Assembly: GCA_018267585.1 (NCBI GenBank) | Contig: JAFDYE010000706.1 | Location: forward strand, 1 to 34,106 | From: Bacteroidota bacterium | GTDB taxonomy: Bacteria > Bacteroidota > Bacteroidia > Chitinophagales > Chitinophagaceae | Length of the DNA stretch: 34,106 nucleotides | Direction: 5' to 3' | Shown here: in pieces, positions 20,166 through 34,106 of the stretch | Position numbering within the stretch: the first letter of the stretch is position 1 | Layout: each line of letters begins with the position of its first letter | The notes under the pieces: model-generated | The model's database searches: none | Told to the model about the DNA's origin: nothing | Seen by the model: the letters and a program-made list of their open reading frames with translations, nothing else | Position numbers and translations under genes: made by a program

Positions 20166-20675
20166 TTATATTGGAAGGGCGCTGGCTTTATGGTGCAGGA
20201 GTCCGATCACCGTCTTGAATATAACGATGAAAAGCCCGGCTTCCTCTTCCGTGAAATTGCTGCCTTCGCCGTCGTCGCCGCCTTCGCTGTAGATAGTGGC
20301 GGCAGCAAACTGAAGGAGGTCAGGCTGACAGAAAGCATCCATGATGGCCATGGCGTCAGTTTCGTCGAAGCCGTCGTTGAAGACTTCTTCCATTTCGTCG
20401 AATTCTTCGTTGAACGCCTTTTCGAATTCTGGCTCAGTGATGGCTGGGATGCCGGGGCTGAGCTCCCGGAAGCTCAGCAGGATAATGGTCAGGACATAGG
20501 CCACGTCCTCCCTTGCGTCGGGTTCCTGTAGTTCGCGGCTTTCACCCAGGACATACCCGACCACGGCCGGCTGGTCTTTGGCGAAGGCATCCCAGACTTT
20601 GCTGATCTGTCCTTCGTCCATTCGCTGGATCCGGTCGTTTATGAGGTCGATCACCTGATCGGTAATTTGTATCAT
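20166..20675 (-). CDS. Acidic hypothetical cytoplasmic protein
   Basis: A 169-residue protein with no signal peptide or membrane segment and strong acidic bias, for example EPEFEKAFNEEFDEMEEVFNDGFDE in the middle and a GGDDGEGSNFTEEE segment near the end. Predicted to be mostly helical. I do not recognise a family. The ATG at 20675 (MIQITDQV) is preferred over a TTG two codons upstream. It is divergent from the arginine deiminase gene with 66 bases between starts, and 171 bases upstream of the acyl-CoA dehydrogenase on the same strand, but the promoter-like elements in that gap suggest the two are separate units. Function unknown. Confidence 0.7.
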   Translation of the reverse strand: MIQITDQVIDLINDRIQRMDEGQISKVWDAFAKDQPAVVGYVLGESRELQEPDAREDVAYVLTIILLSFRELSPGIPAITEPEFEKAFNEEFDEMEEVFNDGFDETDAMAIMDAFCQPDLLQFAAATIYSEGGDDGEGSNFTEEEAGLFIVIFKTVIGLLHHKASALPI

Positions 20676-20741
20676 CCGCAATTTTCTTTCAAACCTACAT
20701 TAAAATGTGCATGTGGGCAAAACAACATAACTTGCAATTAT

Positions 20742-22202
20742 ATGTCAAGAACTTACTCGCTCAAGACAAAGAATCCCATTTCCGTATCCTCTGAGGTTGG
20801 CCGTCTCCGGCGCGTTCTGGTACATAGTCCCGACAGCGGACTGGGCAAGGTGGTTCCGTCGAAAGCGCAGGACTGGCTCTTCGAAGATATTGTTCACCTG
20901 GACACTATCCGGAGGAAGGAATATGATTTCTATACAAAGATACTCCTGTACTTTCTTGACCCGGAGATCATCAAAGGCCGTCTCGCAGAGATCGACGACG
21001 AAAAGAACAAAAGGGCCTTTTACAAGCCGGGAGACGACCAATTCTTCCGCTCGGAAAAGGTCGTCGAGCTGCAGTGGCTGCTCAGTGAGATCCTCACCGA
21101 CGAGTCCATCAAGATGAAGCTGGTGGCGTCCGTCTGCGCTATCGAGGCCTGCTCATACGAGACCCAGCAGCAGCTGCAGCAGCTGGACGCCGTACAGCTC
21201 GCCAAGACCTTTATCAGCGGCTCCCTGACAGAAGACCAAATGCTTTTTGCCCCCATTCCGAACTTCATCTTCACGCGGGACATCGGCATCGTCATCAACA
21301 GCCATGTCCTGCTGAACAAGCCGGCCAAAAAAGCCCGCACGAGGGAGGCCCTGCTTGCCAAATACATCTTTTTCAATCACCCGCTGTTCTCCGACTACCA
21401 GGACAGGATCATCGAGCTCGCCGATACCCATCACCATTTCCTGTTGCCGAGAGAAGGCGACGACCGCAAAGTGACGCTGGAAGGCGGGGACGTCATGGTC
21501 GTCTGTAAAGATCACCTGCTCATCGGCGTCAGCGAAAGGACGTCTACCGAAGCGGCCTACCAGGCTATCAAGGTCCTTTTCGACAAGAACGTGGTGAAGA
21601 AGATCACCATTATCCGCATTCCGAAGAAGCGGGACTATATGCACATCGACACCATCTTCACGCAAATACGCCGCAACGTCTGGATACTGCTGGGCACTTT
21701 CTCCAGGAAGGCCATGAAGCACGAGGACGACGACGAGGTGCAGCGGATTCTCGAGAACAGCAAAAAGGAGGACAAGCTCAAGATCATCCAGTTCAGGAAA
21801 AAAGATCCCGGCAACCCGGAGTATTTCGACAACCTGGAAGATCTGCTAACCGACATCTCCAGGAACGACCTCGATTGCACCGAGAAAATAAAATTCATTT
21901 ATTCCGGCAACAACGAATTCCCTTTTGACGCCAGAGAGCAGTGGACGGATTCCTGCAACCTGCTGGCGCTAAAGGAAGGCGTCGTTCTTAGCTACGATCG
22001 CAACGACAAGACGGTTGAAGCTTTCAAAGAGCATGGTTTCACCGCGGTGCACGCCGAAGACCTTATCCGCGAAATGGAAGAGGGTCGTGTCGATCCTCTC
22101 GCCCTCGAAAATACACTTATCCTGATGCCATCCGCAGAGCTGTCCCGCGCACGCGGCGGTTTCCATTGCATGAGCATGCCGCTGCACAGGGACGAGCTAT
22201 AA
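20742..22202 (+). CDS. Arginine deiminase family protein, extended form
   Basis: Guanidino-group-modifying enzyme of the arginine deiminase/amidinotransferase fold, predicted to hydrolyse L-arginine to citrulline and ammonia in the cytoplasm. Visible motifs are FIFTRD (175-180), EGGD (247-250), the catalytic His H301 in YMHIDTIFT, REQWTDSCNLLAL, and the nucleophile C476 in RARGGFHCMSMP, all in the order seen in bacterial ArcA. At 486 residues it is longer than the usual roughly 410; extra material lies in the N-terminal third (about 60-150) and near 440-460 before the Cys loop. I start at the ATG at 20742 (MSRTYSL), because the open frame upstream has no homology and crosses the divergent promoter region. 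It is 12 bases upstream of a CtlX-type hydrolase, so arginine would be taken through citrulline to further products. No carbamate kinase or ornithine carbamoyltransferase gene is adjacent. Confidence 0.85.
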   Translation: MSRTYSLKTKNPISVSSEVGRLRRVLVHSPDSGLGKVVPSKAQDWLFEDIVHLDTIRRKEYDFYTKILLYFLDPEIIKGRLAEIDDEKNKRAFYKPGDDQFFRSEKVVELQWLLSEILTDESIKMKLVASVCAIEACSYETQQQLQQLDAVQLAKTFISGSLTEDQMLFAPIPNFIFTRDIGIVINSHVLLNKPAKKARTREALLAKYIFFNHPLFSDYQDRIIELADTHHHFLLPREGDDRKVTLEGGDVMVVCKDHLLIGVSERTSTEAAYQAIKVLFDKNVVKKITIIRIPKKRDYMHIDTIFTQIRRNVWILLGTFSRKAMKHEDDDEVQRILENSKKEDKLKIIQFRKKDPGNPEYFDNLEDLLTDISRNDLDCTEKIKFIYSGNNEFPFDAREQWTDSCNLLALKEGVVLSYDRNDKTVEAFKEHGFTAVHAEDLIREMEEGRVDPLALENTLILMPSAELSRARGGFHCMSMPLHRDEL

Positions 22203-22214
22203 ACCGATGAATCT

Positions 22215-23123
22215 ATGCAAACGACCTCCCACCTCCTGATGATCAGGCCGGTCAACTTCGGATTTAATACCGAGACGGCCGGCAACAACGCCTTTCAGGC
22301 AGCCGCAACCAGCAATGCTCAGCAGGAGGCGCTGCGGGAATTTGAAGGATTCGTAGCCCTCCTGAGAGAAAACGGCGTGGACGTCACCGTTATCAACGAC
22401 TCGCCTGAGCCCTATACGCCTGATTCCATTTTTCCCAATAACTGGGTCTCTTTTCATGAAGAAGGGACGGTATGTCTCTATCCCATGTACGCGCCCAACC
22501 GCCGGCTCGAACGAAAACCGGCCGTGCTGGAACAACTGTCCCGGGAATTCGATATCCGCGAGACCCTCGACTTCAGCGGTTACGAACAGCAGGGCCTGTA
22601 CCTCGAAGGCACCGGCAGCATGGTGCTGGACCGGGACGAAAAGATCGCCTATGCCTGTCTCTCCCCCAGGACCGACAGGGCCGTGCTGATAGACTTCTGC
22701 GAAAAGATGGACTACACGCCGGAGGTATTTACGGCGGTGGACGGCAAAGGCCAGGCGATCTATCATACCAACGTCATGATGTGCGTGGCCGACCGTTACG
22801 TCGTGGCCTGCGTGGACGCCATTCCTGATCCTTCCGAGCAGCGCTGCTTTGTCGCCACCATCAGCCACAGCAGGAAAGAGCTGATCAGGATCAGCCTCGA
22901 TCAGATGAACCAGTTCGCCGGCAATATGCTCCAGGTCCACAATGACAAGGGAGAAAAGCTGCTGGTCATGTCGTCACAGGCCTACGCCTCGCTGGACCCC
23001 GCACAGATCAGCCGGCTCACGGCCTTCAATCGCATTCTCCATGCACCCCTGACGATCATCGAGACCAACGGGGGCGGCAGCGCCAGGTGCATGATGGCGG
23101 AGGTACATTTGGCAAAGCGCTGA
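22215..23123 (+). CDS. ctlX: CtlX-type citrulline utilization hydrolase (amidinotransferase fold)
   Basis: A 302-residue cytoplasmic enzyme of the pentein/amidinotransferase fold, close to the group named citrulline utilization hydrolase CtlX. Conserved elements are TPDSIFPNNWVSFH (68-81), EGTGSMVLDR (131-140), the catalytic histidine H184 in YHTNVMM, and the nucleophile C292 in NGGGSARCMMAEV near the C-terminus. It directly follows the arginine deiminase-like gene by 12 bases, which supports a joint arginine-to-citrulline-to-ornithine route that releases ammonia and CO2 without making ATP. The exact reaction is from the family name and context; a dimethylarginine- or other guanidino-hydrolysing role cannot be excluded. 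A typical length and intact motifs argue for an active enzyme. Confidence 0.85.
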   Translation: MQTTSHLLMIRPVNFGFNTETAGNNAFQAAATSNAQQEALREFEGFVALLRENGVDVTVINDSPEPYTPDSIFPNNWVSFHEEGTVCLYPMYAPNRRLERKPAVLEQLSREFDIRETLDFSGYEQQGLYLEGTGSMVLDRDEKIAYACLSPRTDRAVLIDFCEKMDYTPEVFTAVDGKGQAIYHTNVMMCVADRYVVACVDAIPDPSEQRCFVATISHSRKELIRISLDQMNQFAGNMLQVHNDKGEKLLVMSSQAYASLDPAQISRLTAFNRILHAPLTIIETNGGGSARCMMAEVHLAKR

Positions 23124-25866: not shown

Positions 25867-25915
25867 GGAGGGGCGCTAACCGGATAACCCGGCCAGCGCC
25901 TCTTTTATTTTTTTG
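25867..25915 (+). terminator. Likely terminator downstream of pyk
   Basis: GGAGGGGCGCT (25867-25877) pairs with AGCGCCTC (25895-25902), with two bulged G bases on the left arm, and is followed directly by a T-rich run TTTTATTTTTTTG. It overlaps the last codons of the convergent cutC gene and points in the direction of pyk transcription. Confidence 0.5.
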
Positions 25916-26610
25916 ATCTCTTCTTCACTGGCTTCCGTAAAGGACTGTTCTTCCTTCATCCCGGCATTGACATAGTCCATGGCGCTGGCCTGTTTGAGGC
26001 GGGCCGATGTGTGGAACTCTGAGGCGCCGGTTGCCTCCGCCAGCGCCACGATATTGGAGGCTCTGACGCCTGCGCCGGGCATGATGACGATACGCTCGTC
26101 GGCGGCCCTGACCAGCTGGTCGATCAGGTCGGTTCCTTCCATGGCGGTCGGCCGTTGTCCGGAACTGAGGATCCGCTCGCAACCGATGCTGATGATATCT
26201 TCCAGCGCCTCGTAAGGATTGATGGCCCAATCAAAGGCGCGATGAAACGTAACGCCCATCGGATAGGCCGCCTCTACCAGCCGCGCACAGCGCTCTTTGT
26301 CGATGCTTCCATCCTTTTTCAACAGTCCTATGACGACACCATTGCAGCCTGTCTGTTTGCAATAGTCGACGTCGCGCAGCATCGTCAGGTACTCGCCGTC
26401 CGAATACAGGAAGTCTCCCCCCCTTGGCCGGATGATGGGATACAGCTGGATGCGCAACAGTTCGCGGGCCGTCCGGATCAGTCCCGGAGATGGGGTCGTA
26501 CCGCCTTCTTCCGGACTTGCGCAGAGCTCGATACGATCGGCGCCGGACTGCTGAGCGATCAGGGCCGAGCTCAGATTAAAAGCACATATTTCGAGCGTAT
26601 AGTCTGTCAT
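25876..26610 (-). CDS. cutC: CutC family protein
   Basis: A 244-residue TIM-barrel protein of the CutC family, historically named for copper homeostasis though the biochemical activity is not settled. Characteristic motifs are LEICAFNLSSALIAQQSGADRIELC at the start (in two blocks), GGTTPSPGLI, PIIRPRGGDFLYSD, GCNGVVIGLL, VTFHRAFDW, and MPGAGVRASNI near the end. Its ATG overlaps the stop of the upstream glycosylasparaginase gene in ATGA form, so translation is probably coupled. That context hints at a catabolic role rather than copper handling; this is inference. The start is clear because the codon lies in the overlap. Confidence 0.93.
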   Translation of the reverse strand: MTDYTLEICAFNLSSALIAQQSGADRIELCASPEEGGTTPSPGLIRTARELLRIQLYPIIRPRGGDFLYSDGEYLTMLRDVDYCKQTGCNGVVIGLLKKDGSIDKERCARLVEAAYPMGVTFHRAFDWAINPYEALEDIISIGCERILSSGQRPTAMEGTDLIDQLVRAADERIVIMPGAGVRASNIVALAEATGASEFHTSARLKQASAMDYVNAGMKEEQSFTEASEEEIKKIKEALAGLSG

Positions 26611-27674
26611 GGGAGGAAGCTTTTTACTTCAACCATTTTCTCTTCGGAATTGTTCTTGATAGCGTAACTAAATCCTTTTTGAAGGGCATAGGCTCCCACC
26701 TCTCCTTTTTTGTTGATAGCGATAAACGCCACCTGTATCTCCTTTGCTTTTTCTTTTTTGATGCGGGCGATCTTCTCGACGGCTGCCTTGCACGCATTTT
26801 CCGGAGAAAGTCCCTGCCGCATGTACTCCACTACGCTGTGTGAGCCGCAGATACGAATAACGTCCTCGCCTTGCCCCGTGGCCGTGACCGCGCCGACCTC
26901 ATTGTCGACGAAGAGCCCGGCCCCGATGATGGGAGAGTCGCCCAGCCGGCCGCGCATCTTGAAACCCATGCCGCTCGTCGTACAGCTGCCGCTCAGATTG
27001 CCGGCCGCGTCCATCGCCACCATGCCGATGGTATCGTGGTTCCAGTCGCCATTGGGGAGTCTCTGCGGAGCCCAGGGGCCGGAGGCCCCCAAATCATTAT
27101 GAGGCCCGTGGCCCTCCTTGCCGCTCTTCGTATTCTCTATATTAATGACGGGTTTATACTCCGACTTTTTCAGCCACTCCTTGTACGCTTTCTTTGCGTC
27201 CTCAGACAGCCCCGCCGGCTCCAGCGGGAATCCTTCGGCTATAGCGAATTGTTGCGCCCCCTCTCCTACCAGCATCACGTGCGGCGTCTTCTCCATCACC
27301 CGGCGGGCGACAGATATCGGGTGCTTGATCCGCTCGAGAAAGGCGACACTGCCGCAATTCCACTGATGGTCCATGATGCTGGCATCCAGGGTTACATGCC
27401 CGTCCCTGTCCGGATTGGCGCCCAGGCCTACGCAGCAGTTGATCTCTGACTCGGTAATGCGTACCCCGGCCTCTACCGCGTCGAGCGCGGTGCCATTGCG
27501 GCTAAGCACTTCCCAGGCTCCCTTGTTGGCGGCCAGCCCGGTGTCCCAGGTGGAAATGACGACGGGACGACCGGTAACGGCTACCTGTGGGGTCGCCGCC
27601 GCTAATCTTTTAGTGAGTAACGTGCCAAAGGAGCCGAGAGCAGCGGAATGCAGGAATTTTCTACGAGTGGACAT
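26607..27674 (-). CDS. Glycosylasparaginase, N4-(beta-N-acetylglucosaminyl)-L-asparaginase
   Basis: N-terminal-nucleophile amidohydrolase that cleaves the GlcNAc-Asn bond left from N-linked glycoproteins. The 355-residue precursor begins with a twin-arginine signal (STRRKFLHSAALGSFG, RR at 4-5), so it is exported folded to the periplasm. Autocleavage should occur between D214 and T215 in WNHDTIGMVAMD, making T215 the catalytic nucleophile of the beta chain. Other family motifs are ALDAVEAGV, the disulphide-like INCCVGLGANPDRDG, STWDTG and RLGDSPIIGAGLFVDN. Length and motif order match the Elizabethkingia (Flavobacterium) meningoseptica enzyme. The next gene, cutC, overlaps its stop by four bases. 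It is divergent from two secreted hydrolases and a hexosaminidase-fucosidase fusion, which together suggest a glycoprotein-degrading role. A plain isoaspartyl peptidase/asparaginase is less likely given the WDTG and NHDT motifs. Confidence 0.93.
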   Translation of the reverse strand: MSTRRKFLHSAALGSFGTLLTKRLAAATPQVAVTGRPVVISTWDTGLAANKGAWEVLSRNGTALDAVEAGVRITESEINCCVGLGANPDRDGHVTLDASIMDHQWNCGSVAFLERIKHPISVARRVMEKTPHVMLVGEGAQQFAIAEGFPLEPAGLSEDAKKAYKEWLKKSEYKPVINIENTKSGKEGHGPHNDLGASGPWAPQRLPNGDWNHDTIGMVAMDAAGNLSGSCTTSGMGFKMRGRLGDSPIIGAGLFVDNEVGAVTATGQGEDVIRICGSHSVVEYMRQGLSPENACKAAVEKIARIKKEKAKEIQVAFIAINKKGEVGAYALQKGFSYAIKNNSEEKMVEVKSFLP

Positions 27675-27745: not shown

Positions 27746-29641
27746 ATGAGAAAACTTCTTTTTTCACTGCTTTTTTCGGCTGGAAGCCTGGCCGGCTTTA
27801 GCCAGGGTACCAGCCAGGACAGCGCCTGGATCAGAGAAAACTATTACAAGATCGAACAGTACATTCCCATGCGGGACGGCGTCCGCCTCTTCACCTCCAT
27901 CTACATCCCCAGGGATACGACGGAACAGCATCCCATCCTGATGACACGTACGCCGTATTCCTGCGCGCCCTACGGCACGGAGAAATGGAGAAATTTTACG
28001 GCTGGGTATCTCCGTTATTACATGCGGGAAGGATATATCCTGGTCACCCAGGACGTCCGCGGCCGCTGGATGAGCGAGGGACAGTTCGTCGACGTCCGTC
28101 CCTTCATAAAGGACAAGAGATCCCCGTCCGACGTCGACGAAGCCAGCGACACCTACGACGCCATCGACTGGATGGTGAAGCATCTTCCCCACAACAACGG
28201 TAAAGTAGGCGTATTCGGCATCTCCTACCCCGGCTTCTATTCCACCATGGCGGCGGCCAGCGCCCACCCGGCCCTCAAAGCCGTCAGTCCCCAGGCGCCT
28301 GTGACGGACTGGTTCATGGGCGACGACTTCCACCACAACGGAGCCTTTTTCCAGATGGACGGCTGGGCCTTCTATTCTTCTTTCGGAAAGCCCCGTCCCA
28401 AACCAACTACCATCGGCCCCTCCGGTTTTGACTACTATACAAAGGACAACTACAAATGGTACCTCGAGACCGGGGCGCTGAAAAACATTCTCAAGCTCAC
28501 CGGCGACTCCATCGCCTTCTGGAAAGAGCTGTACCAACATCCCAACCTGGACGCCTGGTGGAAGGCCCGTAACGCCCGCGTCGCCATGTATGACATCAAG
28601 CCGGCCATTCTCGTAGTGGGCGGCAACTTTGACGCCGAAGACAACTACGGCGCGTGGAACCTGTTCAAGGCCATCCGGACGCAGAGCCCATCGACCAACA
28701 GCCACCTGGTAATGGGACCCTGGTACCATGGCCAGTGGGCTTCCAACGACGGCACCCACCTCGGCAACGTCCAGTTCGGCTCCAACACCTCCTTCTGGTA
28801 TCAAAACAATATCGAGCTCCCCTTCTTCAACTACTACCTGAAAGGCAAAGGCGCGGAGCCCGGGCTACCCACGGCCACGGTCTTCTTCAGCGGAGCCAAC
28901 GAATGGCGGCAATTCCAGCAATGGCCGCCGCAGGACGAGCAGGACCAGCCTCTCTACCTTCAGCAGGGCGGTGGTCTTTCCTGGACAGCGCCGGTAAGAA
29001 AGGGAGACTACACCGAATATATCAGCGATCCCGCACATCCTGTTCCATACACGGAGGACGTTCATTTTTACCGCACGCGGGAATACATGACCGACGACCA
29101 GCGCTTTGCCTCGCGGAGACCCGACGTACTAAGCTTCCGGACGCCCGAGCTGACCGAAGATCTCACGCTCGCGGGTGTAGTCACGGCCGACCTGCAGGTA
29201 AGCCTCAGCAGCACCGACGCGGATTTTGTGGTCAAGATCATCGACGAATTCCCCGACAACTTCAGCTACGAGCCGGAAACGCCCGGTCCCGTACGGGGTC
29301 ACGATCTTCCCAAATCTTATCCCATGGGCGGCTACCAGATGCTCGTTCATGGTGAGATCATGCGCGGCCGTTTCAGGGAGAGCTTTGAAAAACCGACACC
29401 CTTCAAACCCGGAAAGGTCGAAACCGTGAGCTTCAGGGTGGCGGATGTGGCGCATACGTTTAAGAAGGGCCACCGGCTGATGATCCAGATCCAGAGCTCC
29501 TGGTTCCCGCTGGTCGATCGCAATCCCCAGAAATTCGTGGATATCTATACGGCGAATGACGACGATTTCCAGAAGGAGACGATCCGCGTCTATCACGACA
29601 GCGAGCACCCTTCGAAGATCGTCCTGCCGGTGTTAAAATAA
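27746..29641 (+). CDS. Secreted CocE/NonD hydrolase, alpha-amino-acid ester hydrolase-like
   Basis: A 631-residue serine hydrolase of the X-Pro dipeptidyl-peptidase S15/CocE group, with a signal peptide ending near GFSQ (residue 20). An alpha/beta-hydrolase domain carries the nucleophile S160 in FGISYPGF, the acid D296 in GGNFDAED and His H328 in MGPWYHGQW. The C-terminal jelly-roll domain runs from about residue 420 to the end. The spacing of triad residues and the extra acids D194, E298 and D299 match the carboxylate cluster by which alpha-amino acid ester hydrolases bind the substrate amino group. It would act in the periplasm or outside the cell on amino-acid esters, dipeptides or similar amides; exact substrate unknown. 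A paralogue follows four bases after its stop codon. It is divergent from the glycosylasparaginase gene. Confidence 0.93.
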   Translation: MRKLLFSLLFSAGSLAGFSQGTSQDSAWIRENYYKIEQYIPMRDGVRLFTSIYIPRDTTEQHPILMTRTPYSCAPYGTEKWRNFTAGYLRYYMREGYILVTQDVRGRWMSEGQFVDVRPFIKDKRSPSDVDEASDTYDAIDWMVKHLPHNNGKVGVFGISYPGFYSTMAAASAHPALKAVSPQAPVTDWFMGDDFHHNGAFFQMDGWAFYSSFGKPRPKPTTIGPSGFDYYTKDNYKWYLETGALKNILKLTGDSIAFWKELYQHPNLDAWWKARNARVAMYDIKPAILVVGGNFDAEDNYGAWNLFKAIRTQSPSTNSHLVMGPWYHGQWASNDGTHLGNVQFGSNTSFWYQNNIELPFFNYYLKGKGAEPGLPTATVFFSGANEWRQFQQWPPQDEQDQPLYLQQGGGLSWTAPVRKGDYTEYISDPAHPVPYTEDVHFYRTREYMTDDQRFASRRPDVLSFRTPELTEDLTLAGVVTADLQVSLSSTDADFVVKIIDEFPDNFSYEPETPGPVRGHDLPKSYPMGGYQMLVHGEIMRGRFRESFEKPTPFKPGKVETVSFRVADVAHTFKKGHRLMIQIQSSWFPLVDRNPQKFVDIYTANDDDFQKETIRVYHDSEHPSKIVLPVLK

Positions 29642-29645
29642 ACCG

Positions 29646-31457
29646 ATGACGATGAAACTCCTGCTATTCTTCGCAGCTCTGAGTCCCCTGTGGTGCTGCT
29701 GTCAGACCCGCAACTATGTCAGGGACAACTATGACAAGCGGGAAGCGTATATCCCGATGCGGGACGGGAAGCGCCTCTATACCGCCATCTATATTCCGAA
29801 GGACCACAGCCAGGCCTGGCCCTTCCTGATGGAGAGGACGCCATATTCTGCGGGGCCCTATGGTGACACGGTCTATAAGGGAGGCCTCGGCCCGAGCCCG
29901 GGGCTGATGCAGGGGAAGTTCATCTTCGTCTACCAGGACGTACGCGGCCGGTTCATGAGTGAAGGTAGCTTCCGGGAGATGACGCCGGCGATCGATAAGA
30001 AGACCGGCGCACAGACCGACGAAAGCTCGGATACCTGGGACACCATCGACTGGCTGTTGAAGAATATACAAGGCAACAACGGACGGGTGGGCATCTGGGG
30101 AATATCCTATCCCGGTTTTTATGCTTCGGCGTCCCTTCCGGGTGCCCATCCTGCTCTGAAGGCCGTCTCGCCGCAGGCCCCCGTGACGGACGAGTTCATC
30201 GGCGATGACGCGAATCACAACGGGGCCTTCTTCCTGCTCGACAATTTCGATTTCGACAATTTCTTCGATGTCCCCCGGCCAACGCCGGTGCAGCGCTATG
30301 ACAAAACCCTCTTCAGGGCAGACATATCGGACGCCTATCAATTCTTTCTGGACCTGGGCCCGCTAAAGAACACCAATAACACCGAATACTTCAACCACCG
30401 GGGCAAAATATGGGACGAGTACCTAGGACACTCGACTTATGACAGCTACTGGCAGGCGCGGAATATCCGGACCCACCTGAAGAACATCAAGCCGGCGGTG
30501 CTGGTCGTAGGCGGCTGGTTCGACGCAGAAGATATGTTCGGAGCCCTTCACACCTACGAGGCCATCGAAAAGCAGACGCCCCGCAACGACAACCACCTGA
30601 TCATGGGACCATGGACCCACGGCGCCTGGGCGGGAAGAACCTGGAACAAATTCGGCCCCCTGGACTTCGGTATCAACGTCAACGAACGCTACCACGAAAT
30701 AGAGACCGCCTTCTTCAATCATTATCTAAAGGGCTCTGCCGCTGCACCGCTGGCGGAAGCCACGGTATTCGAGACGGGCTCTAACCAGTGGAAGGAATAT
30801 ATGAGCTGGCCACCCGCGCAGGCAAAGCCTGTGAAATACCTGCTGCAGCCTAAAGGCTTGCTCACGGCTGACGGCAAGGGCGGCACCGGCTACGACGAGT
30901 ACGTGAGCGACCCGGCGGATCCGGTTCCCTATATCGACGGCGTTCACGGCGGACGCGACAACCAGTATATCATCACCGACCAGCGTTTTGCTTCAAAGCG
31001 GCCCGACGTGCTGAGCTTTCAAACCGGCCCGCTGGACCAGCCGCTCACCGTCACCGGCCGGCTAAAAGCCGATATCTTTTTAGCATCCACCGGCAGCGAC
31101 GCCGACCTCATTGTCAAGCTGATCGACGTGCTCCCTGAACCCGACGGCTACCAACAGCTGGTTCGGGCAGAGGTATTCCGGTGCAAGTTCAGGAACAGCT
31201 ACGAAAAGCCGGAGCCGCTGGTCCCGGGTAAAGTGGCGGAGATCGTTTTTGACCTCAACGAGATCGCCCACACTTTCAAGAAAGGGCACCAGGTCATGGT
31301 CCAGATACAAAGCAGCTGGTTCCCGCTGGTCGACCTGAATCCGCAGACCTTTGTAAATATTCCAACCTGCGATACCTCGGACTTTAAGAAGGCGACGATC
31401 CGCATCTATCACGACGCGGCGCATCCTTCCGGGATCGTGCTGCCGGTGCTACAATAG
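29646..31457 (+). CDS. Secreted CocE/NonD hydrolase, second tandem copy
   Basis: A 603-residue paralogue of the preceding gene, starting four bases after it. The signal peptide has an unusual cluster of three Cys (LWCCCQ, residues 17-19), which is not a canonical lipobox. The triad is S154 in WGISYPGF, D293 in GGWFDAED and H325 in MGPWTHGAW; the amino-group-binding acids are D188, E295 and D296. The C-terminal jelly-roll is present and ends with the same PSGIVLPVLQ-type motif as the first copy. The first copy has a longer insertion after the jelly-roll begins (PETPGPVRGHDLPKSYPMGG) that is missing here. An in-frame ATG two codons in is an alternative start. It is followed by the GH20-GH29 gene at 15 bases and is probably in one operon with it. 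Confidence 0.93.
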   Translation: MTMKLLLFFAALSPLWCCCQTRNYVRDNYDKREAYIPMRDGKRLYTAIYIPKDHSQAWPFLMERTPYSAGPYGDTVYKGGLGPSPGLMQGKFIFVYQDVRGRFMSEGSFREMTPAIDKKTGAQTDESSDTWDTIDWLLKNIQGNNGRVGIWGISYPGFYASASLPGAHPALKAVSPQAPVTDEFIGDDANHNGAFFLLDNFDFDNFFDVPRPTPVQRYDKTLFRADISDAYQFFLDLGPLKNTNNTEYFNHRGKIWDEYLGHSTYDSYWQARNIRTHLKNIKPAVLVVGGWFDAEDMFGALHTYEAIEKQTPRNDNHLIMGPWTHGAWAGRTWNKFGPLDFGINVNERYHEIETAFFNHYLKGSAAAPLAEATVFETGSNQWKEYMSWPPAQAKPVKYLLQPKGLLTADGKGGTGYDEYVSDPADPVPYIDGVHGGRDNQYIITDQRFASKRPDVLSFQTGPLDQPLTVTGRLKADIFLASTGSDADLIVKLIDVLPEPDGYQQLVRAEVFRCKFRNSYEKPEPLVPGKVAEIVFDLNEIAHTFKKGHQVMVQIQSSWFPLVDLNPQTFVNIPTCDTSDFKKATIRIYHDAAHPSGIVLPVLQ

Positions 31458-31472
31458 TCGTATATTCGGGGC

Positions 31473-34106
31473 ATGAGCAAGCACCTACGTCTTTTCGCCC
31501 TGCTGGTCTTCATTGCAGCGGGCGTCTTTGCACAGGAACACCCCGCCATTATTCCGCAACCCGTAAACACCAATTGGGGCAGCGGCAGTTTCTCCATCCA
31601 CGCGGGCATGGTCATTGTTGCTGATCCATCCGACAGATCGACGGTTGACTTTTTTAACTCCTATCTTCAGCGCATCTACGGCCTCAAGCTGCAGGTACAG
31701 ACTGGGCCCATGTCCGGCGCTATCCGGCTGGAGACGCATGCCGCCGCTGCGCCGAAGGATGGGCACTACACACTGAAAGTTGCCGGCGACGGCATCACGA
31801 TCACCGGCGATACGCACGAAGGCTGCTTCTATGGTATGCAGACCCTGATACAGCTGCTGCCGGTAGCGCCATTCGCAACCTCATCCGCCGGCCTCGTCAT
31901 TCATCCGGATGCTGCGGGCCTGGCTATCCCGGCGGTAACTATCGAAGACTATCCTCGTTTTAAGTACCGCGGCCTGCACCTCGACGTCGGTCGCCATTTC
32001 TTCCCAGTCGAATTTGTCAAGAAGTATATCGACTACATGGCCCTCCACAAGCTGAACTATTTCCATTGGCACCTGACCGAGGACCAGGGCTGGCGTATCG
32101 AGATAAAGAAATACCCCCGTCTCACCGAGGTCGGCGCCTGGCGAAGCGGCACGATTATCGGGCATCACCCCGGCACCGGCGACGACAGTACCCGGCATGG
32201 CGGTTATTATACGCAGGATCAGATAAAAGAAGTAGTGCAATATGCGGCCGACCGTTATATCACCATTATCCCCGAGATCGAAATGCCCGGGCATGCTACA
32301 GCTGCACTGGCTTCCTATCCCGGCTTGGGTTGCACGGGCGGCCCATATTCGGTGCCACACAATTTCGGCGTCCATAAGGATGTCTTCTGTGCTGGCAACG
32401 ACAGTGTCTTCAGCTTCCTGCAGGACGTGCTTGACGAAGTGATGCCGCTCTTCCCGTCGAAATATATACATATCGGTGGTGACGAATGTCCGAAGGATAG
32501 CTGGAAGGTCTGTCCTAAATGCCAGGCCCGGATGAAAACCCTTGGGTTGAAGAATGAGGAGGAACTTCAAAGTTATTTTATCACCCGCATCGAAAAATAC
32601 ATCAACTCAAAAGGTAAGCAGATCATCGGCTGGGACGAGATCCTGGAAGGCGGTATCGCGCCCAATGCCACGATCATGAGCTGGCGCGGCGAGAAAGGCG
32701 GCATCGAGGCTGCCAGACAGCATCACAATGTGATCATGACTCCCGGCGAATACGTCTACTTCGATCACTCCCAGACCCGCAATGACGACTCGCTGACCAT
32801 CGGCGGCTATCTGCCATTGGACAAGGTCTACAAATACGAGCCGATCCCGTCGGGGCTGTCCGACGAAGAATCCCGCTATATCTTAGGCGCACAGGCCAAC
32901 CTGTGGACGGAGTACATGAGCAATCCCGCGAAAGTGGAGTATATGCTCTTCCCCCGTCTCAGCGCCCTGTCCGAAGTATTGTGGAGCCCGAAGGGCGCCC
33001 GCAGCTGGAAGGATTTCCAGCACCGGCTGGCTACCCAGTATAAACGCTATGCCCTGTGGCACGCCAATTCCTACCAGATATGGTTCCAGCCGGCCGACAC
33101 AGCGGTTCAGCAAAAGCTGGCACAGTGGCAGGACTACAAATTCGGGCTCATGATGCACTGGGGCACTTATAGCCAGTGGGGTATCGTGGAGAGCTGGAGC
33201 ATCTGCCCCGAAGACGAGGGCTGGACTCAACGCCGCGGGCCCTATGCGGATAGCTATAACAACTATGTACAGCATTATACCGACCTGCAAAAGACCTTCA
33301 ATCCCGCGCACTTCGACCCTTCCAAATGGGCCGCGGCGGCAAAGGATGCGGGTATGAAGTATGTGGTGTTCACGACAAAACATCACGACGGGTTTTGCAT
33401 GTTCGATACGAAGCAGACGGACTATAAGATCACGTCGCCGGCCTGCCCATTCTCTTCCAATCCGCGCAGCAATGTGGCGAAGGAGGTCTTTGATACATTC
33501 CGCCAGCAGGGTTTTCTGATCGGCGCTTATTTCTCCAAACCCGACTGGCACAGCAACGACTACTGGTGGTCCTATTTTCCGCCCAAAGACCGCAACGTCA
33601 ACTATGACCCGGCCCGCTATCCCCAGCGCTGGCAGGCCTTTAAGGACTATACCTTCAGGCAGATCGAAGAGCTGATGACCGGCTATGGACGAATGGATGT
33701 GCTATGGCTGGACGGAGGCTGGGTGCGGCCGCTGTCCACCGTCAATCCTTCTGTGGACTGGCAGCGCGGTATCCGCTATGACCAGGACGTGGACATGCCG
33801 AAGATCGCGGCCATGGCCCGCAGCCATCAGCCGGGCCTGATCGTCGTCGACCGCAGCGTGCCGGGAGAATACGAGAATTATACTACTCCCGAGCAACTGG
33901 TCCCCGAGCATCCTATGGACGACCCCTGGGAAACCTGTATGACGATGGGCAACTCCTGGTCCTATGTTCCGAACGACCACTACAAGTCTACGACCCGGCT
34001 GGTGCAGCTGCTCGTCAGGATCGTCTCCCGCGGCGGCAACTTTCTGCTCAATATCGGGCCCTCCCCTGAGGGCGACCTTGCCGACACGGCGTATCTTCGT
34101 CTGAAA
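31473..34106 (+). CDS. GH20 beta-N-acetylhexosaminidase fused to GH29 alpha-L-fucosidase (3' end outside window)
   Basis: Partial gene: 878 codons are open from the ATG at 31473 to the window edge, read codon by codon without a stop. A signal peptide ends near GVFAQ (residue 21). Residues about 24-150 are the GH20 accessory alpha/beta domain (GITITGDTHEGCFYGMQTL). Residues about 155-530 are a GH20 catalytic barrel with GLHLDVGRHFF, LHKLNYFHWHLTEDQGWRIE, PEIEMPGHATAAL and the catalytic pair D337-E338 in HIGGDECP, which removes terminal beta-GlcNAc or GalNAc by substrate-assisted catalysis. After almost no linker, from about residue 545 a GH29 domain begins with WQDYKFGLMMHWGTYSQW, continues with KHHDGFCMFDTKQTDY (H637, H638) and has the likely nucleophile D747 in DVLWLDGG, then NIGPSPEGDL. 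The chain is not complete, and the GH29 C-terminal beta-domain should follow. It lies 15 bases after two secreted hydrolases and near a glycosylasparaginase gene. A cloning or assembly artefact is unlikely because the frame is continuous. Confidence 0.93.
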   Translation, partial: MSKHLRLFALLVFIAAGVFAQEHPAIIPQPVNTNWGSGSFSIHAGMVIVADPSDRSTVDFFNSYLQRIYGLKLQVQTGPMSGAIRLETHAAAAPKDGHYTLKVAGDGITITGDTHEGCFYGMQTLIQLLPVAPFATSSAGLVIHPDAAGLAIPAVTIEDYPRFKYRGLHLDVGRHFFPVEFVKKYIDYMALHKLNYFHWHLTEDQGWRIEIKKYPRLTEVGAWRSGTIIGHHPGTGDDSTRHGGYYTQDQIKEVVQYAADRYITIIPEIEMPGHATAALASYPGLGCTGGPYSVPHNFGVHKDVFCAGNDSVFSFLQDVLDEVMPLFPSKYIHIGGDECPKDSWKVCPKCQARMKTLGLKNEEELQSYFITRIEKYINSKGKQIIGWDEILEGGIAPNATIMSWRGEKGGIEAARQHHNVIMTPGEYVYFDHSQTRNDDSLTIGGYLPLDKVYKYEPIPSGLSDEESRYILGAQANLWTEYMSNPAKVEYMLFPRLSALSEVLWSPKGARSWKDFQHRLATQYKRYALWHANSYQIWFQPADTAVQQKLAQWQDYKFGLMMHWGTYSQWGIVESWSICPEDEGWTQRRGPYADSYNNYVQHYTDLQKTFNPAHFDPSKWAAAAKDAGMKYVVFTTKHHDGFCMFDTKQTDYKITSPACPFSSNPRSNVAKEVFDTFRQQGFLIGAYFSKPDWHSNDYWWSYFPPKDRNVNYDPARYPQRWQAFKDYTFRQIEELMTGYGRMDVLWLDGGWVRPLSTVNPSVDWQRGIRYDQDVDMPKIAAMARSHQPGLIVVDRSVPGEYENYTTPEQLVPEHPMDDPWETCMTMGNSWSYVPNDHYKSTTRLVQLLVRIVSRGGNFLLNIGPSPEGDLADTAYLRLK

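Follow-up and report, generated by a model that had tools for sequence, protein, structure and literature searches.

The last open reading frame of this Chitinophagaceae contig raises the question of whether a GH20 hexosaminidase and a GH29 fucosidase are genuinely joined in one protein and, if they are, on which glycan such a protein would act. The window, that is, the whole stretch of 34,106 nucleotides analysed here, is the whole of contig C673 from a 7.0-Mb genome (929 contigs, 95% complete), and it ends inside the gene in question, whose features are as follows.

31473..34106, + strand: fused GH20-GH29 gene, ATG start, 878 amino acids in the window, 3′ end past the contig
31473..31535, + strand: signal-peptide-like N-terminus, residues 1–21 (translation inspected by eye)
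31539..31952, + strand: GH20 N-terminal domain Glyco_hydro_20b, residues 23–160 (Pfam)
31959..32990, + strand: GH20 catalytic barrel, residues 163–506, with D337 and E338 (Pfam)
32991..33092, + strand: junction, residues 507–540, from the GH20 end to the mature GH29 start, without spacer and without GH29 leader
33093..34103, + strand: GH29 catalytic barrel, residues 541–877, with the predicted nucleophile D747 (Pfam)

Both families were matched by Pfam within this one frame, Glyco_hydro_20b at residues 23–160 (E = 3.2e-26), Glyco_hydro_20 at 163–506 (1.4e-124; 416.5 bits against a cut-off of 22.3) and Alpha_L_fucos at 541–877 (4.9e-87; 293 bits against a cut-off of 25.2), the last covering positions 18–333 of a 345-position profile, the remainder of which lies past the contig end. 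The catalytic signatures were located where the original prediction had placed them, with HIGGDE at 333–338 (D337, E338), WQDYKFG at 552, KHHDGF at 636 and LWLDGG at 744 (D747), and all 12 fused homologues share D337, E338 and D747. In GH20 enzymes, the adjacent Asp and Glu each have a role in catalysis, and D337-E338 aligned with the GGDE of the solved Bacteroides thetaiotaomicron GH20 BT0459 (PDB 6q63), which gives the window protein the adjacent Asp-Glu pair of the family. In the GH29 half, D747 fell opposite D186, described in PMC10815079 as the nucleophile of the Paenibacillus thiaminolyticus alpha-L-fucosidase iso1 (PDB 6gn6). Iso1 is the best solved match to this half at 170 bits, but it is a 447-residue chain of low similarity whose E239 has no certain counterpart in the window protein: the phmmer alignment puts E801 opposite E239, a by-eye match of SPEQ to TPEQ puts E807 there, and both candidates for the acid/base residue are conserved throughout the 12 fused homologues. 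Given so distant a relationship to solved enzymes, the linkage cleaved by the GH29 half is not readable from its sequence. That this is a genuine fusion is near certain, and the protein is likely to have both GH20 and GH29 activities. The signal-like N-terminus, seen by inspection, suggests that it is exported, as had been predicted.

The missing 3′ end, which the original prediction had proposed to recover, was located on contig C665 of the same genome, which shares the final 448 bases of the window (98.2% identity) and goes on into the remaining C-terminus of the fused gene, a part that matches 109 residues of a relative at 68%. Given this overlap and the continuing C-terminus, the break at the end of C673 looks like strain variation rather than the end of the gene, and the full-length fused protein should be about 987 amino acids. 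Microbial GH29 fucosidases are described in PMC10154630 as usually consisting of the catalytic domain and one or two C-terminal beta-sandwiches, and such a sandwich is present in relatives of the window gene, whose own C-terminus is past the contig, as a Fucosidase_C match in the G009 relative (27.3 bits, cut-off 25.6) and as strands 894–986 in a structural model of the G017 relative.

Of 33 genomes of the same genus, 12 encode both catalytic domains in a single frame, the window's own included, although the window frame is cut near the GH29 end and that of G012 is short at its C-terminus; G030 is a thirteenth fused genome, with a contig end shortly after the GH29 start. A sequencing-error frameshift joining two separate genes, which had been named as the finding that would overturn the fusion, is excluded, since 11 other genomes hold both domains in one frame, including Flavitalea sp. 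BT771 with its fused gene on a 1.1-Mb contig. The claim of almost no linker was also borne out, as the distance from SEVLWSP near the GH20 end to HWGTYS at the GH29 start is 186 nt in 12 of 12 fused genes. In seven of the 33 genomes (G008, G019, G021, G026, G027, G028 and G031), the two domains are encoded by adjacent separate genes, GH20 then GH29; nine have one or both domains with adjacency not established, and four gave no match at the 1e-170 limit. G024 has, besides the fused gene on C243, a separate lone GH20 (L067), which clusters with the GH20s of the tandem pairs in G031 and G019.

Beyond the genus, both domains occurred in one match, among the matches listed, only in the three fused genus members included in a family sample of 394 genomes and in two genomes, both of the genus, in a phylum sample of 395. 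The best 80 of at least 541 confirmed loci in named genomes included five fused loci (L059, L060, L062, L063 and L064), one of them Flavitalea sp. BT771, and six tandem loci (L061, L065, L066, L068, L098 and L124); the five fused and five of the six tandem loci belong to genomes already in the genus set and therefore supply extra names, not extra counts. Puia sp. (L068) and Flavitalea sp. (L062) are among the record names for this genus, and each is a name within Chitinophagaceae. Frames were checked on the DNA, as a reported open frame may cross a stop codon (1025 residues in G008 as against an actual 546 and 478). A second fusion in another class, suggested by frames over both domains or GH29 in G1050 (1291 aa) and G1157 (1266 aa), was rejected, as the DNA shows separate genes. 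G036 was also set aside, its 1062-aa frame being another GH29 protein with no match to GH20, as was G527, whose 788-aa frame was matched by neither half of the window protein at 1e-8.

The original prediction knew of no characterised enzyme with this domain order, and the literature searched agrees: no paper on a GH20-GH29 fusion was found by phrase search and none is announced by the titles and abstract openings searched, CAZy being outside the scope, and a word search of the GH29 sequence-space paper found GH20 unmentioned in the text covered (PMC11189522). The domain architecture is new, while both component enzyme families are well known.

For the structure, the 987-residue G017 protein was modelled with an alignment of 31 rows (A3); a 38-row alignment (A2) was not used, as GH20 rows whose C-terminal parts differ were apparently misaligned over the GH29. 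The model has a mean pLDDT of 75.9, a pTM of 0.62 and 140 residues below 50, and its predicted order of strands and helices fits two barrels followed by a C-terminal sandwich. A fold search with this model placed BT0459 first at 50% identity; the best 50 of 519 matches at E <= 0.001 were all GH20 by title and range, which leaves the search uninformative on the GH29 half. BT0459 is also the nearest solved GH20 by sequence (574 bits, 2.3e-171, residues 28–524), but in its 774-residue chain the match stops at 527 and about 245 C-terminal residues differ from the fused protein. It was not among the matches of the GH29 half in the search against solved structures. The second-nearest solved GH29 is among the fucosidases 9EU1, 9EU2 and 9EU4, for which no paper was found in the literature searched.

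The genes that precede the fused gene bear on its possible substrate.

29646..31457, + strand: S15 peptidase (CocE/NonD family) just upstream of the fused gene, with a gap of 15 bases
27746..29641, + strand: second S15 peptidase (CocE/NonD family), with a gap of 4 bases to the first S15
26607..27674, - strand: glycosylasparaginase-like gene (Asparaginase_2), divergent, HDTIG with T215, RR-type leader by inspection
25876..26610, - strand: CutC-family gene, 4-base overlap with the asparaginase-like gene

The asparaginase-like neighbour matched solved glycosylasparaginases, whose chains we take to be from Elizabethkingia, at 7e-108, as against 2e-35 for the best L-asparaginase or isoaspartyl peptidase, and gave no NCBIfam match above the NCBIfam cut-offs. 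HDT is the maturation motif of N-terminal nucleophile asparaginases, and T215 in the HDTIG of this protein stands at the site where the beta chain of 1ayy begins. This gene occupies the expected position in every one of the 13 fused loci. In 10 it is contiguous with CutC; in G024 the locus is cut by a contig end, and in G017 and G030 it lies across a contig break, a placement deduced from two broken ends on two contigs that are both S15. Two S15 paralogues stand in tandem upstream of the fused gene in all 13 loci. The same cluster, including two S15 genes, is present in G031 with separate GH20 and GH29 genes, and in G015 the 14 kb inspected contain CutC, the asparaginase, a single S15 and GH20 but no GH29.

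The asparaginase family was found in 30 of the 33 genus genomes, and in six of the seven tandem genomes its best match is on another contig than the GH20-GH29 pair, a comparison in which the contig of the pair is short in G019 and G008. Of 80 GH20/GH29 loci, 21 had an asparaginase relative within the flanks retrieved, in one case at only 34% identity, and with the fused and tandem loci set aside the count was 16 of 69. The same 80 flanks contained S15 genes in 26 cases, CutC in 16, PFK and PK in 5, GlnRS in 2 and the RND genes in 1; of the window genes before PFK, no other one tested occurred in any. Given these counts for CutC and the asparaginase and the 4-base overlap of their genes, a glycan-related role is possible for CutC. 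The Pfam scan of 21 window ORFs, two of which gave no match, revealed no mannosidase, galactosidase or PNGase, small ORFs being outside the scan.

The reading that we favour, with about even confidence, is that the fused protein is an exported, probably periplasmic, bifunctional exoglycosidase that trims core-fucosylated GlcNAc2-Asn. Using substrate-assisted catalysis at D337/E338, the N-terminal GH20 beta-N-acetylglucosaminidase would cleave the outer GlcNAc from the N-glycan chitobiose core, or else antennary GlcNAc. The C-terminal GH29 alpha-L-fucosidase, through a retaining mechanism in which D747 is the nucleophile, would free the innermost GlcNAc of its fucose. Cleavage of the remaining GlcNAc-Asn would fall to the neighbouring glycosylasparaginase, and trimming of the peptide to the S15 peptidases. 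We infer the core substrate and the order of these steps; the neighbours and the literature on BT0459, core fucosidases and Lactobacillus casei together point to the fucosylated GlcNAc2-Asn stub as the best-supported substrate. BT0459 is described as hydrolysing the remaining chitobiose of N-glycans (PMC9522356). GH29 core alpha-1,3-fucosidases of B. massiliensis and X. campestris are reported to require a processed core (PMC10154615), and cFase I of E. meningoseptica is described as not requiring one (PMC9522356). The B. massiliensis enzyme, B035DRAFT_02132, is likened here by description, not by sequence: according to PMC9522356, it is a GH29 enzyme, predicted to be periplasmic, that removes core fucose after other trimming, but the account given there does not describe it as a fusion. 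In the alf-2 cluster of L. casei, the GH29 fucosidase AlfC and then the glycosylasparaginase AsnA2 degrade Fuc-GlcNAc-Asn, the affinity of the latter being lower while fucose is present; that pathway differs in its permease uptake and separate proteins, and no GH20 is among the steps given (PMC6960285). AlfC is a distant relative of the GH29 half (1.4e-21).

A narrower version, which we put forward only tentatively, is that the protein is a dedicated N-glycan-core trimmer, carrying out two consecutive reactions on one Fuc(GlcNAc2)-Asn stub, with the glycosylasparaginase, and not a PNGase or endoglycosidase, detaching the last sugar. If this version is right, the protein would be the first described natural hexosaminidase-fucosidase fusion of the GH20-GH29 order. 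Fused genes point to cooperating proteins. The gene cluster suggests an all-exo, asparaginase-ended route of glycoprotein breakdown in these Bacteroidota. From the fusion, its tandem relatives and the conserved glycosylasparaginase-like neighbour, a substrate that can be put to the test is predicted for a GH29 clade in which no close member has been solved, and the protein becomes a candidate one-pot tool for the removal of core fucose and GlcNAc from glycopeptides.

The original prediction had offered both core-fucosylated N-glycans and Lewis-type epitopes as targets, of which the first is favoured by the glycosylasparaginase-like neighbour and the kinship with BT0459, and the second remains the main rival. 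The fused enzyme would then act on antennae, Lewis-type or other fucosylated oligosaccharides, the GH29 removing antennary fucose and the GH20 the exposed GlcNAc, with the glycosylasparaginase as an independent step on the same glycopeptides. We consider this a serious but rather unlikely alternative. BT0459-type GH20s are reported to act on the antennary GlcNAc of N-glycans (PMC10154615), so that kinship with BT0459 does not single out the core, and GH29-A enzymes, a subgroup to which the window GH29 may belong, are described as broad (PMC10815079). The galactose of Lewis A must leave before the GlcNAc, however, and the scanned window ORFs include no galactosidase for that step. In another class (G1050, G1157 and G869), an unfused GH20-GH29 pair stands beside a GH35 beta-galactosidase in three of three loci, with a second GH29 in two and a GH38 in one (part of the ORFs scanned), and one of the three also has a fucose isomerase, an FGGY kinase and a class II aldolase. 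The GH35 and the second GH29 are as expected for Lewis A antennae, and these loci fit antennary work as well as core trimming, but the different GH29 beside the pair could itself do the antennary step in the two loci that have it. These loci, L145, L146 and L147, resemble a plant complex N-glycan degradation set.

Core trimming by one protein also has to be weighed against the absence of any joint function, in which two exoglycosidases of one operon came together through a chance deletion and go on acting separately, on different substrates. The history of the junction bears on this. In seven of seven tandem pairs, the GH20 stops shortly past the matching motif and the GH29 keeps its own signal-like leader ending in AQ, after which the residues match the linker of the fused protein; these junctions were read with a widened motif, taking in L068, L050, L051, L061, L065 and L098. 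The presence of the leader in the tandem GH29 and its absence from the fused linker point to loss of the stop codon, the spacer and the GH29 leader. A single stop codon is all that separates the two genes, which share one frame, in G008 and G026, and this makes fusion mechanically easy. Fused rows group into a single clade in the GH29 tree (support 100/99; 25 rows: 12 fused, 7 tandem, 6 alone) and, with moderate support of 86/78, in the GH20 tree (28 rows: 12 fused, 8 tandem, 8 alone), both from hand-picked rows in which the lone genes are a sample and G030 was left out. The fusion thus probably arose once, by loss of stop, spacer and leader, and if so the lineage still displays the ancestral tandem, a pair in one frame with a single stop codon, and the fused gene. 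Comparison of the window gene with five fused homologues gave pN/pS values of 0.11–0.20 for the GH20 barrel, 0.10–0.17 for the GH29 and 0.25–0.77 for the linker, the least constrained part among those tested; synonymous sites are near saturation in several of the five pairs. These values indicate purifying selection on both halves. Separate genes in seven genus genomes, two of them with one frame and a single stop, would suit a chance linkage, as would a domain arrangement poorly fixed by the model (pTM 0.62), a confidence at which the relative facing of the two pockets cannot be concluded. The fused state is nevertheless common to 12 genomes with one junction length and constraint on both halves, and we regard a fusion without joint function as improbable. 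Exactly one TAA lies between in-frame GH20 and GH29 genes in L061 (5241–5243) and L065 (7489–7491), with the GH29 leader soon after.

Cleavage of an exported precursor in the linker, releasing two ordinary enzymes, would agree with the low constraint on that segment, but only 14 residues separate the last GH20 helix (512–528) from the first GH29 helix (543–555) in the G017 model and the junction length is constant in 12 of 12, making this very improbable. An assembly or sequencing artefact that joined two genes has a negligible probability: the window is one contig of a fragmented genome and ends inside the gene, but the junction is the same in 12 genomes, in four of them on contigs of more than 0.5 Mb.

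Two minor observations concern other genes. In L124, the tandem GH20-GH29 pair lies with PFK, PK and S15 genes on a contig filed under Beijerinckiaceae, the PFK, PK and first S15 having 63–81% identity to those of the window, and this contig is possibly misbinned. At 20667–23123 of the window, an arginine-deiminase-family gene adjoins a DDAH-type dimethylargininase gene.
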